In this document: positions 2,616 to 55,064 of the stretch, one piece after another
Numbering within the stretch: position 1 is the first letter of the stretch
Layout of the letters: each line of letters opens with the position of its first letter
Assembly (NCBI RefSeq): GCF_000420505.1
Contig: NZ_ATVB01000002.1
Span: 62,001-126,000 of the forward strand
Length of the DNA stretch: 64,000 bases
DNA from: Alloscardovia omnicolens DSM 21503
GTDB lineage: Bacteria > Actinomycetota > Actinomycetes > Actinomycetales > Bifidobacteriaceae
Direction: 5' to 3'
Program-made: the position numbers and the translations under genes
The notes under the pieces: generated by a model
What the model saw: the letters and a program-made list of their open reading frames with translations, nothing else
Told to the model about the DNA's origin: nothing
Databases searched by the model: none

Positions 2616-2686
2616 GCTACACCTATGGGGTGCTACGGCTGAGATCATACCCATTGAACCTGTTCAGATAATGCTGACGAAGGGAT
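2616..2686 (+). promoter_or_regulatory. TPP riboswitch (THI element)
   Basis: The leader carries the conserved TPP-aptamer blocks in order: GGGGTGC, GGCTGAGA, ATACCC, then TTGAACCTG, AGATAATGC and GACGAAGGGA. The last block contains the Shine-Dalgarno sequence (AAGGGA, about 2680-2685) only a few bases from the tenA ATG. That arrangement suggests translational control: TPP binding would sequester the ribosome site. No separate terminator hairpin is seen between aptamer and gene. Confidence 0.92.
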
Positions 2687-2690
2687 ATAT

Positions 2691-3365
2691 ATGTCAGAAA
2701 ATCTCACACCATACGAATACTGTAAACAGTTAGCGCGCAATAACTGGGAGAAAACAGTACATCATCGTTTTGCTCAAGAACTGTGCGCACAAACGCTCGA
2801 TCATGCGGTTCTGCGCGACTATCTTATCCAGGACTATCAGTTCGCTCAAGACTTCCTGAGCCTGCTTGGCCAGGTTTTAGCGAGCGCGGATACCATGAAC
2901 GCGAAAGTTCGTTTAGCCCAACAGCTCGGTTTTATCGGCAACGACGAGAACACATACTTTCTCGACCGTTTTAAGCAGTACGGCGTATCCGATGAAGATA
3001 TTGATAATCCAGTACTAACTCCTGCAAGCCGCGGCTTTAGACAGCTCTATGGCGATGCTGTGCTGTCGCGCTCGTACGCGCAAGGTTTGGCAGTGCTGGT
3101 GGTCGCAGAAACGATTTATCGTGATTGGGCCGAAGAGAGCACAAACTATGGTCGCAACTTGCCAGACAGGGAAGAATATCGCGGTTGGGTGGACGTGCAT
3201 AGGGGAGAATACTTCGATGATTGGTGCGCATTTCTCATAAGCGAATTCAATCGAGTAGCAGATATAACAGATACGAAGATTACTGATACTTTCGTACGTG
3301 CTGTTGCTCTTGAACGCGCTTTCTTCGATAATGCGTATGATTCGCAACGAGACTTCCTCGCTTAA
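2691..3365 (+). CDS. tenA: TenA/thiaminase II-like protein, E-type (no catalytic Cys)
   Basis: A 224-aa all-helical TenA-family protein, linked to thiamine salvage by hydrolysis of degraded pyrimidine precursors. The N-terminal substrate aspartate is present (YLIQDYQF, Asp48). At the position of the TenA catalytic cysteine (usually LLPCYW-like) the sequence reads VLVVAETIYRDW, so Ala139 replaces Cys and is followed by Glu140. This resembles the TenA_E subgroup rather than classical thiaminase II. The TPP riboswitch directly upstream supports a role in thiamine metabolism. It is a single-gene unit closed by a strong terminator. The exact substrate cannot be told from sequence. Confidence 0.88.
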   Translation: MSENLTPYEYCKQLARNNWEKTVHHRFAQELCAQTLDHAVLRDYLIQDYQFAQDFLSLLGQVLASADTMNAKVRLAQQLGFIGNDENTYFLDRFKQYGVSDEDIDNPVLTPASRGFRQLYGDAVLSRSYAQGLAVLVVAETIYRDWAEESTNYGRNLPDREEYRGWVDVHRGEYFDDWCAFLISEFNRVADITDTKITDTFVRAVALERAFFDNAYDSQRDFLA

Positions 3366-15022: not shown

Positions 15023-15508
15023 ATGGCCATTCGCGATATTCGCGTTGTTCCTGATCCAGTATTGCGCACGCCATGCGATGAAATTACCAATATTACGCCA
15101 GCAGTACGCAACCTCGTGCAGGATTTGCTCGATACCGTCGATGATCCAGGACGTGCAGGCTTATCGGCTAACCAAATTGGAGTGAGTTTGCGTGCCTTCT
15201 CATACAATATTGAAGGTAAAGTGGGCTACATCTTAAACCCTGTGCTGGTAGAAAAATCTGGCGAGCAATACGGTGATGAAGGTTGCCTGTCTGTGCCTGG
15301 ACTATGGTATAAAACCCGCAGAAGCGATTATGCCAAGGTAGAAGGCATTAATCTCGAAGGAGAAAAAATCGTTCTAGAAGGCTCAGGGCTTATGGGGCGT
15401 ATGCTTCAACATGAATGCGATCATCTTGACGGTCACGTGTATCTAGATCGTTTAGAAAAAGAAGAAAGGCGAGAGGCTTTGCGCTACATGCGTGCTCATC
15501 ACGCTTAA
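15023..15508 (+). CDS. def: Peptide deformylase
   Basis: Metal-dependent enzyme that removes the formyl group from nascent proteins, 161 aa. All three signatures are present: GLSANQIGV near residue 50, EGCLSVPG near residue 90 (Cys metal ligand), and HECDHLDG near residue 130 (HExxH). The start has an AACGAGGAGA site inside the end of the upstream acyl-CoA synthetase gene. Length is normal for a type-I enzyme. Confidence 0.96.
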
Positions 15509-15685
15509 TAGGCGAGAGGTAGCGCTGTCTGAAGCGATAACTTTTCAGGCGTGTCGCGCGAACTTAGTATGCAGGTTCTAGTACTATAAAGCTTGCATAT
15601 CGCCATTTTAGGGGTATATTCGCACAAATACTCGTAAAAAACTTTTATTGTCTATAGATATGTGAAAACGCGCTATGTGTGCGAC

Positions 15686-15756
15686 GATTCGTGTCGGTCG
15701 GCTGTTTATACAGCTGTATGCGAATCTGCATAGCCAGGCAAGAACCGACAGAAAGG
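15686..15756 (+). promoter_or_regulatory. Probable autoregulatory rpsB leader (S2-binding pseudoknot)
   Basis: GATTCG (15686-15691) pairs with CGAATC (15721-15726), enclosing a small GCTGT/ACAGC hairpin (15701-15714). TGTCGGT (15692-15698), inside that loop, is complementary to ACCGACA (15744-15750), which abuts the ribosome site GAAAGG. The two helices interlock as a pseudoknot next to the start. S2-controlled rpsB leaders with pseudoknots are known in other bacteria; the match here is by architecture only. Confidence 0.5.
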
Positions 15757-15762
15757 TATATC

Positions 15763-16587
15763 ATGGCAGAAATTACCATGAGCCAGATGCTCAAGGCTGG
15801 CGTTCATTTTGGTCATCAGACTCGTCGTTGGAACCCTAAGATGAAGCAGTTCATCTTGGCTGAGCGCAACGGCATTCACATCATCAACTTGTTCAAGTCT
15901 CTCGATTTGATCGATCAGGCTTATGACTTCATCAAGCAGACCGTAGCACACAACGGCACCGTTCTGTTCGTAGGTACCAAGAAGCAGGCTGCACAGGCAG
16001 TATCTGCTGAGGCTGCTCGCGTGAACATGCCATACGTGTCTGAGCGTTGGTTGGGCGGTATGCTCACCAACTTCCAGACCGTGTCTAAGCGTGTTGTACG
16101 TATGAAGGAACTCGAAGAGATGGACTTCGATGACGTACGTTCCAGCGGTTTGACCAAGAAGGAACTCCTTCTTCTTGAGCGCGAAAAGGACAAGCTCGTT
16201 AAGCAGCTTGGCGGTATCCGTAACATGGATCGCACTCCTTCCGCAATGTTCGTTGTAGACATCAACAAGGAAGCTCTTGCAGTTGAAGAAGCTCACAAGC
16301 TCGGCATTCCTGTAGTAGCTCTTGTAGATACCAACACCGATCCAGACTCTGTGGATTACCCAATCCCAGCAAACGATGACGCAATCCGCGCTATCGAACT
16401 TCTCACAGCTTTGATGGCAGATGCAGTAGCAGAAGGTCTTATTGCTCGTGGTGGCAAGGGTGCTAATGCAGCAGCTGCACAGCAGCCACTTGCTGAGTGG
16501 GAAACTGAACTCTTGAAGTCTGACGCAGCTAACGAAGCTGCCCCAGCTCAGGCTGCACCAGAAGCTGAGGCAGCTCAGGCTGAGTAA
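15763..16587 (+). CDS. rpsB: 30S ribosomal protein S2
   Basis: Small-subunit protein of 274 aa, opening with [23 protein letters not shown]-type sequence and containing the signatures [10 protein letters not shown] and [14 protein letters not shown]-terminal Ala/Glu/Gln extension of about 40 residues follows the conserved core, as in many actinobacteria. The start ATG at 15763 has GAAAGG upstream; longer in-frame starts would run through the structured leader. Codon bias is strong. It is followed by tsf in the usual rpsB-tsf operon. Confidence 0.97.
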
Positions 16588-16620: not shown

Positions 16621-17475
16621 ATGGCACAGATTACTGCTGCTCTTATTAAGGAAGTGCGTGACGCTACAGGCGCAGGCATGATGGACGTTAAGAAGGCTTT
16701 GACTGAAGCTGAAGGCGACATTGCACGCGCAAAGGAAATCATCCGTGCAAGCGGTATTAAGGCTGCTGGTGCACGTGAAGGTCGTAAGGCTCAGGAAGGT
16801 CTTATTGCTTCTTCCGTAGCTAACACAGCGGAAGGTCAGACTGGTTACGCAGTTGAGCTTAACTCTGAGACTGACTTCGTAGCAAAGACTGATGCTTTCG
16901 TAGAGCTCGGTGATACCGTTGTAGCAGCTGCTCAGGCAGCAGATGCTCGCAATGAAGAAGCAGTTTTGGCAGCATCCACCGATGCTGGCACTGTGAAGGA
17001 CACCATTGACGAAGCAGGTGCACTCTTCCACGAGCACGTAAAGCTCGGCCAGGTTGCATCCGTGAGCGGTCCACACGTGGAAGTTTATGCTCACCGCAAG
17101 TCTGTGGAACTTCCACCATCCATCGTTGCTATGGTGGCAACCGATGAAGCTGGTGCAGAAGTTGCTCACGAAGTAGCTTTGCAGATTTCTGCAATGGCTC
17201 CACAGTGGCTCACTCGCGAAGATGTTCCAGCAGATGTTGTGGAATCCGAGAAGCGCGTAGCTACCGAGAAGTCCTTGGCAGAAGGCAAGCCAGAAGCAAT
17301 CGTTCCAAAGATTGTAGAAGGCCGTATGAACGCTTTCTATAAGGAAGTTGTTCTGCTCGAGCAGGCTTACGTAAAGGACCCATCCAAGACTATTGGCGAC
17401 CTGTTCAAGCAGGTTGGCGGTTCCGCTGTAGCATTCGCTCGTGTGGAAGTTGGCAAGGGCGAAGACGCTGAGTAA
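16621..17475 (+). CDS. tsf: Elongation factor Ts
   Basis: Guanine nucleotide exchange factor of EF-Tu, 284 aa. The N-terminal UBA-like domain carries VRDATGAGMMDVKKAL, and the core signature ELNSETDFVAK is at about residue 80. Ribosome site GAGGAGA precedes the ATG, and strong codon bias is shared with rpsB. A very strong terminator ends the operon. Confidence 0.97.
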   Translation: MAQITAALIKEVRDATGAGMMDVKKALTEAEGDIARAKEIIRASGIKAAGAREGRKAQEGLIASSVANTAEGQTGYAVELNSETDFVAKTDAFVELGDTVVAAAQAADARNEEAVLAASTDAGTVKDTIDEAGALFHEHVKLGQVASVSGPHVEVYAHRKSVELPPSIVAMVATDEAGAEVAHEVALQISAMAPQWLTREDVPADVVESEKRVATEKSLAEGKPEAIVPKIVEGRMNAFYKEVVLLEQAYVKDPSKTIGDLFKQVGGSAVAFARVEVGKGEDAE

Positions 17476-26964: not shown

Positions 26965-27922
26965 GCCTTCACCCGTTCCTAGTGTTATTCCGCCGCAGTT
27001 AAGCGAAGAAGCGCAGCAGCGTTCACGTGTTACTTTTTCCAGTGATGCCGGAAAACTCAGTAAAAGACGCATCGAAACGCGCTCATCACGAAACTCACAG
27101 TCAGCGCGTTCGCAGTCGCGCAGAACTCCCAAGTCCTCTCAATTATTAGAGGACTTAATGCGCCATCCGCTCGATCCTCTTTTTGAGGACGCTACTTTAA
27201 CAGCGCATACAATATCGCGTACACAGCGCATTATTACGCATATTATTTCTTTTATTCTGTGCGTGGTTGTAGGTTTTGGCAGCTCTCAAGCAGTACGGAT
27301 CTTACAGGGTCAATCTCGAGAAAAAGTGCGTGCACAATTAGCAGCGCAACTTGTTGCTACTACAAAAAATGCACAGGACCTCGAAAATACTGTTAAAAAA
27401 CAGCAAAAAGAACTGCTCAATCTTACGCGACAAACGAAAAACGAAGCCAATACTATCAGTAAAATACGTGATTCCTATATTCTTACCGCACAGTCAGCAG
27501 TGCGAGGTTCAGGTATAACGATGACGCTGACTAATCCGAGCACGGATGATTCAGCGACCAAAGGACGTGTTACAGATGGTCAGTCAAACGCATTAGTAAG
27601 CGATGCGCAATTGCAATATATTTTATCTTTGCTCTGGCAAGCAGGTGCTGAAGCTATCAGTATTAATGATGTGCGTATAGGACCTCAAACTGCTGTACGT
27701 TCAGCTGGAGGCACTATACTGGTGGGTATTACGGCAGTGCAAAGCCCTTACGTAATTCGCGCTATTGGTAATGCACAGATTATGCAGAATGCTGTGGATT
27801 CCTCACGTATAGCTTCTGTACTGTTCACCCCGATTGGAGTTTCTATGACAGTTACTCACAGCAAAGTTCTCGGCCTTCCTGCGGCAAATGCTGTGAGTAT
27901 TGAACGAGCACGAAAGGAGTAA
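26954..27922 (+). CDS. DUF881-family membrane protein (first copy)
   Basis: A 322-aa protein with a basic, Ser/Arg-rich cytoplasmic N-terminus (about 90 residues), one membrane helix (IITHIISFILCVVVGFGSS), a coiled-coil stretch (about 125-165), and an extracytoplasmic DUF881 domain with ILSLLWQAGAEAISINDVRI. Function unknown. It corresponds to mycobacterial Rv1823. The start ATG at 26954 has GAGGAG at 26941-26946; GTG at 26951 is possible. It overlaps pgsA by 11 bp and is 2 bp from the next gene, so the cluster is tightly coupled. Confidence 0.85.
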   Translation: MENKPSPVPSVIPPQLSEEAQQRSRVTFSSDAGKLSKRRIETRSSRNSQSARSQSRRTPKSSQLLEDLMRHPLDPLFEDATLTAHTISRTQRIITHIISFILCVVVGFGSSQAVRILQGQSREKVRAQLAAQLVATTKNAQDLENTVKKQQKELLNLTRQTKNEANTISKIRDSYILTAQSAVRGSGITMTLTNPSTDDSATKGRVTDGQSNALVSDAQLQYILSLLWQAGAEAISINDVRIGPQTAVRSAGGTILVGITAVQSPYVIRAIGNAQIMQNAVDSSRIASVLFTPIGVSMTVTHSKVLGLPAANAVSIERARKE

Positions 27923-54682: not shown

Positions 54683-54755
<73 letters not shown>

Positions 54756-54806
54756 AAGTATACTTACATATTCATTTATACGCTTTTATTGACTAGCTTT
54801 AGCCTG

Positions 54807-54879
54807 TGGGCGATACAGGATTTGAACCTGTGACCTCTTCCGTGTCAGGGAAGCGCGCTAGCCCCTGCGCCAATCGCCC
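54807..54879 (-). tRNA. tRNA-Val (anticodon GAC)
   Basis: A 73-nt cloverleaf nearly identical to the neighbouring tRNA-Val: acceptor GGGCGAT/ATCGCCC, anticodon loop CTGACAC, T-loop GGTTCAAATCC. The pair probably arose by duplication; the anticodon loop differs. Confidence 0.96.
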
Positions 54880-54894
54880 AGTCTAATAAAAGAG

Positions 54895-54965
54895 AGGTGA
54901 GTACGAGAGTCGAACTCGTCTATACGGCTTTGCAGGCCGCTGCCTAACCGCTTGGCTAACTCACC
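54895..54965 (-). tRNA. tRNA-Cys (anticodon GCA)
   Basis: A 71-nt cloverleaf: acceptor GGTGAGT/ACTCACC, anticodon loop CTGCAAA within GCGGC/GCCGT, discriminator T (U73), which is the Cys identity base. Confidence 0.96.
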
Positions 54966-54991
54966 GTAAGAGGTCAACTCGACTGACCACG

Positions 54992-55064
54992 AGCGGACAA
55001 CGGGACTCGAACCCGCGGTCTCGACCTTGGCAAGGTCGCGCTTTACCAACTAAGCTATGTCCGC
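54992..55064 (-). tRNA. tRNA-Gly (anticodon GCC)
   Basis: A 73-nt cloverleaf: acceptor GCGGACA/TGTCCGC, anticodon loop TTGCCAA within CGACC/GGTCG, discriminator T. First gene of the cluster Gly-Cys-Val-Val, an order common in actinobacteria for the first three. Confidence 0.96.

Follow-up and report, generated by a model that had tools for sequence, protein, structure and literature searches.

In the window, by which we mean the whole 64,000-nucleotide stretch of DNA analysed here, a 254-nt gap between the end of a peptide deformylase gene (15508) and the start of rpsB (15763) houses a leader element, which raises the question of how this leader folds and what it might control. The gene for ribosomal protein S2, rpsB (15763-16587; Pfam Ribosomal_S2, E 1.7e-94; ORF list), begins with an ATG at 15763 preceded by the Shine-Dalgarno sequence AAAGG (15752-15756), and tsf, encoding EF-Ts, lies downstream (16621-17475; Pfam EF_TS, E 9.4e-57; ORF list); these genes and all leader features below are on the forward strand. 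A preliminary description of the locus had proposed an S2-controlled pseudoknot from two interlocking pairings, GATTCG (15686-15691) with CGAATC (15721-15726) and TGTCGGT (15692-15698) with ACCGACA (15744-15750). All four strands are indeed present. Taken by themselves they are moderately unlikely: among 3000 dinucleotide shuffles of the 100 nt upstream of the rpsB start codon, 63 contained a 6-bp and a 7-bp perfect helix that interlock, whichever came first, and 135 contained two such helices of 6 bp. The pairings owe their credibility to comparison across leaders, not to the window sequence alone. Such comparison supported them throughout the family leaders, with compensatory changes far above controls, and we judge the interlocking pairings to be real.

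The pairings belong to a domain, here called domain II (15672-15749), whose elements follow in the order P1a, an 8-nt 5' bulge, P1b, the pseudoknot strand GTCGGT, a capping hairpin, the return strands, a joiner and ACCGAC. P1a is formed by GCTATG (15672-15677) and CATAGC (15729-15734), the bulge is TGTGCGAC (15678-15685), P1b consists of the GATTCG and CGAATC strands, and the capping hairpin GGCTG/CAGCT spans 15700-15715 (15700-15704 with 15711-15715). From 101 family loci we obtained 75 distinct Bifidobacteriaceae rpsB leaders (alignment A1), leaving out 15 duplicates and 11 leaders without GGTCGG (L161-L171, from divergent genera or partial hits). Alignment A2 holds 57 distinct trimmed leaders out of 66 references, from which L117 and seven rows of genus g12 misaligned by MAFFT had been excluded earlier. 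In A2, 97.3% of cells pair, against 89.5% in shuffled alignments (sd 0.4) and 29-37% in slid controls, and 123 cells are changed on both sides, against 32.9 after shuffling; each of the two values was reached by 0 of 500 shuffles. With the seven misaligned rows included, A1 still gave 93.0% paired and 117 double-change cells (0 of 500 shuffles). The compensatory changes are located in P1a, P1b and the capping hairpin, where 11 pairs carry double changes in A2, the covariation extending to the 3' strands of both P1a and P1b. Pair 15673-15733 occurs as CG, UA or UG and pair 15674-15732 as CG or UA, and both-side changes were found at four of the five counted pairs of P1b and at four of the five pairs of the capping hairpin; the outermost P1b pair, 15686-15726, is unpaired in 55 of the 75 A1 rows. 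These data indicate that domain II is a genuine RNA fold. Moreover, a search model of it, R1, had matches with E up to 0.1 in 176 of the 189 family genomes (G068 and G165 weakly, at 0.07-0.08), including 161/161 good ones, that is, those with a completeness of 90% or more and a contamination of 5% or less. In the six genomes compared by eye (G000, G021, G023, G063, G048 and G117), the R1 matches adjoin rpsB. The regions upstream of rpsB in L161-L163 (genus g3) and L170 (genus g7) lack GGTCGG, and some of them may carry another version.

The two helices of the preliminary description fared differently in the search for compensatory changes within Bifidobacteriaceae: P1 shows them strongly, but the pseudoknot helix is constant. 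Its 5' strand GTCGGT (15693-15698) is invariant in 75 of 75 A1 leaders and its 3' strand ACCGAC (15744-15749) is complementary in all 75, and because these leaders do not vary here, covariation cannot prove the pseudoknot inside the family. Among 100 further leaders, three show a change from U-A to a U-G wobble in this helix. In 69 of the 75 leaders AGG follows ACCGAC after 4-6 nt (0-7 nt overall), and in the window the joiner CAGGCAAGA precedes ACCGAC just before the Shine-Dalgarno sequence. A further set comprised 125 rpsB leaders from other Actinomycetota, divergent family genera, E. coli and other phyla, near-duplicates kept, of which the 90 with both AACC and GGTC anchors were scored. A helix grown outward from GGT/ACC reached a mean of 4.77 with a leader's own strands, against 3.52 with exchanged strands (sd 0.11; 0 of 2000 permutations). 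The strands differ between lineages, being GGGGT/ACCCC in E. coli, GTTCAGGT/ACCTGAAC in the myxobacterial L107 and, by eye, CTGCGGT/ACCGCAG in L077 and leaders like it. Support for the pseudoknot thus combines invariance in the family with covariation in leaders elsewhere. An AGG...AACC signature was also tried and was set aside as inconsistent between groups.

Comparison with known leaders suggests what kind of element this is. The description of the rpsB motif by Meyer et al. 2009 (PMC2704228) shares with domain II the place upstream of rpsB, a long P1 and a junction cap with variable stems, of which P2 may be absent; the capping hairpin corresponds by position to the P3 of that motif. A pseudoknot between a junction strand and the 3' extension, a further feature of the published motif, is likewise found here, and the layout as a whole agrees well with this published pseudoknotted S2 leader, in keeping with the preliminary description. 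The E. coli rpsB leader (t44/tff, RF00127) can be parsed in the same way, with P1a CACGTATC/GATACGTG, the bulge GGCA, P1b CATATT/AATATG and the GGGGT/ACCCC pseudoknot. Its joiner is GAGGCATA, that of the window CAGGCAAGA. From the published motif, the leader here differs in its pseudoknot of 6 bp (GTCGGT/ACCGAC) and in a P1 bulge of about 8 nt. A single descriptor scored 45.5 for the E. coli leader and 47.8 for the window, and a value of 45 or more was reached by one of the 244 control windows and by six of the 122 leaders. At a threshold of at least 35 it was reached by 40 of 122 non-family leaders against 14 of 244 controls, a partial separation, and several parses (L100, L101, L201 and L206 among them) were implausible or empty. 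We conclude from this architecture that domain II is built like an S2 (rpsB) leader.

The comparison with Rfam S2-leader models that the preliminary description had suggested was negative. RF00127 (t44), the model of the E. coli element, scored over its gathering cut-off in none of 41 family genomes; it gave three weak matches (E 0.7-3.7) away from rpsB, G000 yielded no match with E up to 10, and the E. coli control scored 83.5 bits. When the window and 20 other leaders were scanned against Rfam, nothing beyond chance matches turned up around the element, and no family matched it. Elsewhere in the window, a TPP riboswitch (2616-2702, forward strand) scored 56.7 bits, above the Rfam gathering score, and four tRNA genes are clustered at 54683-55064 on the reverse strand. 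In the opposite direction, R1 was run on 98 class genomes (G000 included) and gave 26 weak non-family matches at E up to 1, none of them at rpsB. On 94 loci it gave 11 weak matches, four of which fall on rpsB leaders (L167, E 0.025; L201, E 0.17; L203, E 0.33; L128, E 3.7). A shared origin with the proteobacterial motif is likely, but no more than that, since R1 had no rpsB match in the 97 non-family class genomes. The taxa named in the rpsB section of PMC2704228 are Alpha-, Gamma-, a few Beta-, Delta- and Epsilonproteobacteria, Cyanobacteria and some Firmicutes, with no Actinobacteria among them. The L31 and L17 leaders of Actinobacteria (Eckert and Weinberg 2020, PMC7247131) are likewise covariation-supported structured leaders before ribosomal protein genes, but they concern other proteins, and the new-leader table of that paper has no S2 leader in Actinobacteria. 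No actinobacterial S2 leader was found in the literature searched, a search that did not take in Fu et al. 2013, the likeliest source. In other Actinomycetes (L120-L141 and L172-L204), YCAGG occurs within 140 nt before rpsB in 21 of 22 and 31 of 33 leaders (347 of 1100 control windows), and L195 and L200 show, by eye, a hairpin and ACAACCGAG; a longer class-level S2 leader is possibly present there.

The stretch marked in the preliminary description comprises half of the element; the full element is about twice as long, and includes P1a, the capping hairpin and an upstream domain at 15593-15665, all absent from that description. In this domain I, an outer helix at a constant place encloses a hairpin whose loop recurs between leaders while the sequence of its arms is free. 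The outer helix, P0, pairs TTGCATATC (15593-15601) with GATATGTGA (15657-15665), and the hairpin pairs 15606-15617 with 15628-15639, with one mismatch, around the apical loop ATTCGCACAA (15618-15627). Energy folding of 15592-15667 returned exactly this shape, MFE and centroid in agreement, at an unexceptional energy (z -1.5; 16 of 200 shuffles as stable). Across 145 distinct leaders, P0 scored 19.9, against 15.5 (sd 0.26) with the 3' strands permuted (0 of 200). Its compensated forms are many, among them that of the window and TGTGTGCC/GGCACACA, CGTGCGCC/GGCGCACG and TGCGCGTC/GACGCGCG. In 60 of 68 rows the best outer helix lay where it was expected; the other eight have theirs elsewhere. A hairpin search found the hairpin better than its own shuffle in 114 of the 145 leaders, not in all. 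The loop of the best hairpin contains TCGC, TCAC or TCGT in 56 of 75 rows, the commonest form being AGTCGCAG. In alignment A3, which consists of 29 Bifidobacterium rows picked for regular length out of 68 rows, a choice that favours structure, 95.0% of cells of the whole domain are paired and 49 cells show double changes, against 14.7 after shuffling (0 of 500), the hairpin stem included in the covariation.

A model of domain I, R2, had matches with E up to 0.01 in 95 of the 189 family genomes, 90 of the 161 good ones among them. When searched against 61 sources, it matched 34 at E up to 0.012, 13 training rows included. Compared by eye with R1, the R2 matches in G056, G027 and G187 adjoin domain II; G038 has two R2 matches, so that one lies elsewhere. 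In the class, R2 matched 0 of 59, in a search run without a positive control, and in the family it matched none of the five genomes of the window's own genus. Because R2 misses this genus, the assignment of domain I in the window rests on its shape and on its loop-bulge match. A weak R2 match at 27151-27220 of the window (forward strand; 17.6 bits, E 0.07) is probably due to chance. Together, these comparisons indicate that domain I covaries in a large part of the family.

The base of domain I also coincides with the probable start of transcription. In 66 of 68 leaders, the first base of a TANNNT box stands 97 to 85 nt ahead of P1a, against 2 to 9 of 68 in six control bins of the same width; since this box lies upstream of domain I, transcription probably starts at the base of the domain. 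In the window, the box is the predicted -10 element TACTAT (15582-15587), placing the start near 15594, at the base of P0. The preliminary description had staked its proposal on transcription not starting downstream of 15700, and the predicted start lies on the upstream side of that position; a search of 15400-15850 with the sigma-70 consensus gave no promoter, and no 5'-end map was found in the literature searched.

The two domains seem to touch each other, judging from the complementarity between the domain I loop and the 5' bulge of P1. In the window, TCGCAC of the loop (15620-15625), the proposed docking strand, can pair with GTGCGA of the bulge (15679-15684), and in most of Bifidobacterium GTCGC faces GCGAC. 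Among 145 distinct leaders, a leader's own loop and bulge reached a complementarity of 4.82, against 4.54 with bulges exchanged (sd 0.04; 0 of 1000 permutations), and over the 74 distinct loop-bulge combinations the values were 4.92 and 4.44 (sd 0.07; 0 of 2000); these counts exclude seven g12 rows, L299, L313 and L316. The excess was also seen without hairpin calling (Watson-Crick 4.90 vs 4.65; 0 of 200). Compensations of several bases are found in L308 (TTCACGA/TCGTGAA), L292 (ATCGTA/TACGAT), L304 (GTCACGT/ACGTGAT) and L312, and GTCGTG/CACGAT is a further change on both sides that keeps the match. Genus g12 has a different but matching pair, TGCCGC/GCGGCA, in 7 of 7 rows (L062, L064, L155 and L157-L160), counted as one event. 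L154-L160 of this genus lack the family's usual upstream sequence and have a short hairpin with a TGCCGC loop before the P1 bulge GCGGCA. A competing pairing of the bulge with the linker before P1a was rejected as weaker than the loop-bulge pairing (3.72 vs 3.64; 2 of 500), and its small excess implies that relatedness explains a small part of the loop-bulge signal.

Several other explanations of these observations were weighed. Domain II could be an S2 leader beside which domain I acts independently, as a site for S1 or EF-Ts or as a stability hairpin, the loop-bulge match being a by-product of two conserved motifs. Loop and bulge are near-constant in most of Bifidobacterium, so many of its rows carry no information on the contact, and fewer than five contiguous pairs are formed in 34 of 145 leaders. 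In 17 of these, GTCAC stands opposite GCGAC or GCGAT, an A-C mismatch; L228, L264, L280, L317 and L146 match poorly, and the low matches of L296-L307, L023, L037 and L270 look like miscalled hairpins. A tree-aware test on the RpsB protein tree (86 leaders, from 88 with an RpsB sequence, two being dropped) yielded 6 double changes for an expectation of 1.9 (a number reached in 42 of 5000 permutations was the 6 observed), 4 of the 6 keeping a pair, which is a modest excess and as such agrees with independence. Two motifs conserved separately would, however, have to accommodate the several-base compensations in L308, L292, L304 and L312, the changed and still matching pair of g12, the permutation result over distinct combinations, which no permutation equalled, and the three R2 matches adjoining domain II. 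We regard an independent domain I as unlikely, while taking it seriously. Another idea is that the inverted repeats of domain I are an untranscribed DNA operator for a transcription factor. The repeats do lie between the upstream gene and rpsB, and a TATTGT-like box also occurs inside domain I (37 TANNNT boxes begin in the bin at -30). Operators usually conserve their arms, whereas here the arms vary and the loop is near-constant, and the TANNNT box of 66 of 68 leaders is upstream of domain I; we give an operator hardly any credence.

For domain II, energy folding favours other structures, both in the window and in RNAalifold on A1. The window fold, computed by a method that allows no pseudoknots, nests TGTCGGT/ACCGACA and leaves P1 unformed (z -1.7, a stability matched by 10 of 200 shuffles); a hairpin at 15717-15732 that appears only in it pairs in 67% of cells and was rejected. 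The functional state might be a nested fold without pseudoknot or P1, with CGAC (15682-15685) paired to GTCG (15693-15696) and GTCGG (15697-15701) to CCGAC (15745-15749). This is the choice of RNAalifold on A1, and 98.4% of its cells pair. Against it, the nested fold shows 0 changes on both sides and a covariation score of 0.053 vs 0.063, reached by 497 of 500 shuffles, whereas P1 and the capping hairpin show 11 double-change pairs in the same rows. Such a fold is very improbable as the functional state and may occur as a transient one. Alternatively, the leader could control rpsB in response to a signal other than S2, such as a metabolite, temperature or transcription attenuation, which is conceivable in that the identity of the ligand comes by inference. 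This is improbable given that the layout equals that of an S2 leader, that 15400-15850 holds no site resembling an intrinsic terminator, and that the R1 matches compared by eye sit before rpsB.

The reading we prefer, with a probability of about 0.7, is a two-domain S2-type leader in which the domain I loop is docked on the P1 bulge and the S2-bound pseudoknot lowers the synthesis of S2 and EF-Ts. The helices that covariation shows within the family are P0, P1a, P1b and those of the domain I hairpin and the capping hairpin; it shows the loop-bulge contact more weakly. We lean slightly towards accepting the composite architecture itself, an S2 leader with an upstream hairpin that docks on the P1 bulge by a loop-bulge kissing helix. 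In the mechanism we propose, the rpsB-tsf mRNA would have its 5' end near 15594 and carry a two-domain leader of about 168 nt. Domain II (15672-15749) would provide the bulged P1, the capping hairpin and a pseudoknot whose 3' strand stands directly before the Shine-Dalgarno sequence, and domain I (15593-15665) would clamp the leader into a compact fold by pairing its apical loop with the 5' bulge of P1. By analogy with known S2 leaders, we infer S2 to be the ligand and controller: S2 in excess over 30S subunits would bind the docked fold and stabilise the pseudoknot, which would keep ribosomes off the Shine-Dalgarno sequence, block initiation at rpsB and, through the operon, lower EF-Ts as well.

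In E. coli, according to the review PMC10931766, S2 represses rpsB-tsf with the assistance of S1, and control by S2 may be lost upon a small deletion of a conserved bulge that lies far upstream of the ribosome-binding site. The P1 bulge described here is the counterpart of that bulge by position only. The E. coli operator as presented there excludes the ribosome-binding site; our proposal differs on this point, as it places the pseudoknot next to that site. No upstream docking domain is mentioned in the rpsB section of PMC2704228, and by eye no matching upstream loop was seen in the E. coli leader. No docking domain on an S2 leader was found in the literature searched, and we consider this domain a new part. 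PMC10931766 states that mechanistic details of S2 control remain unclear, and PMC8470358 (2021) speaks of almost no information on such control in Actinobacteria. For Bifidobacteriaceae, the element missed by Rfam is nevertheless represented by domain II in all 161 good genomes. Its bulge is apparently paired with a separate hairpin through compensated changes, which would offer a direct mutational handle on S2 recognition. If the composite leader is real, the family would have an added RNA clamp that either pre-organises the S2 recognition site or competes with S2 for it.
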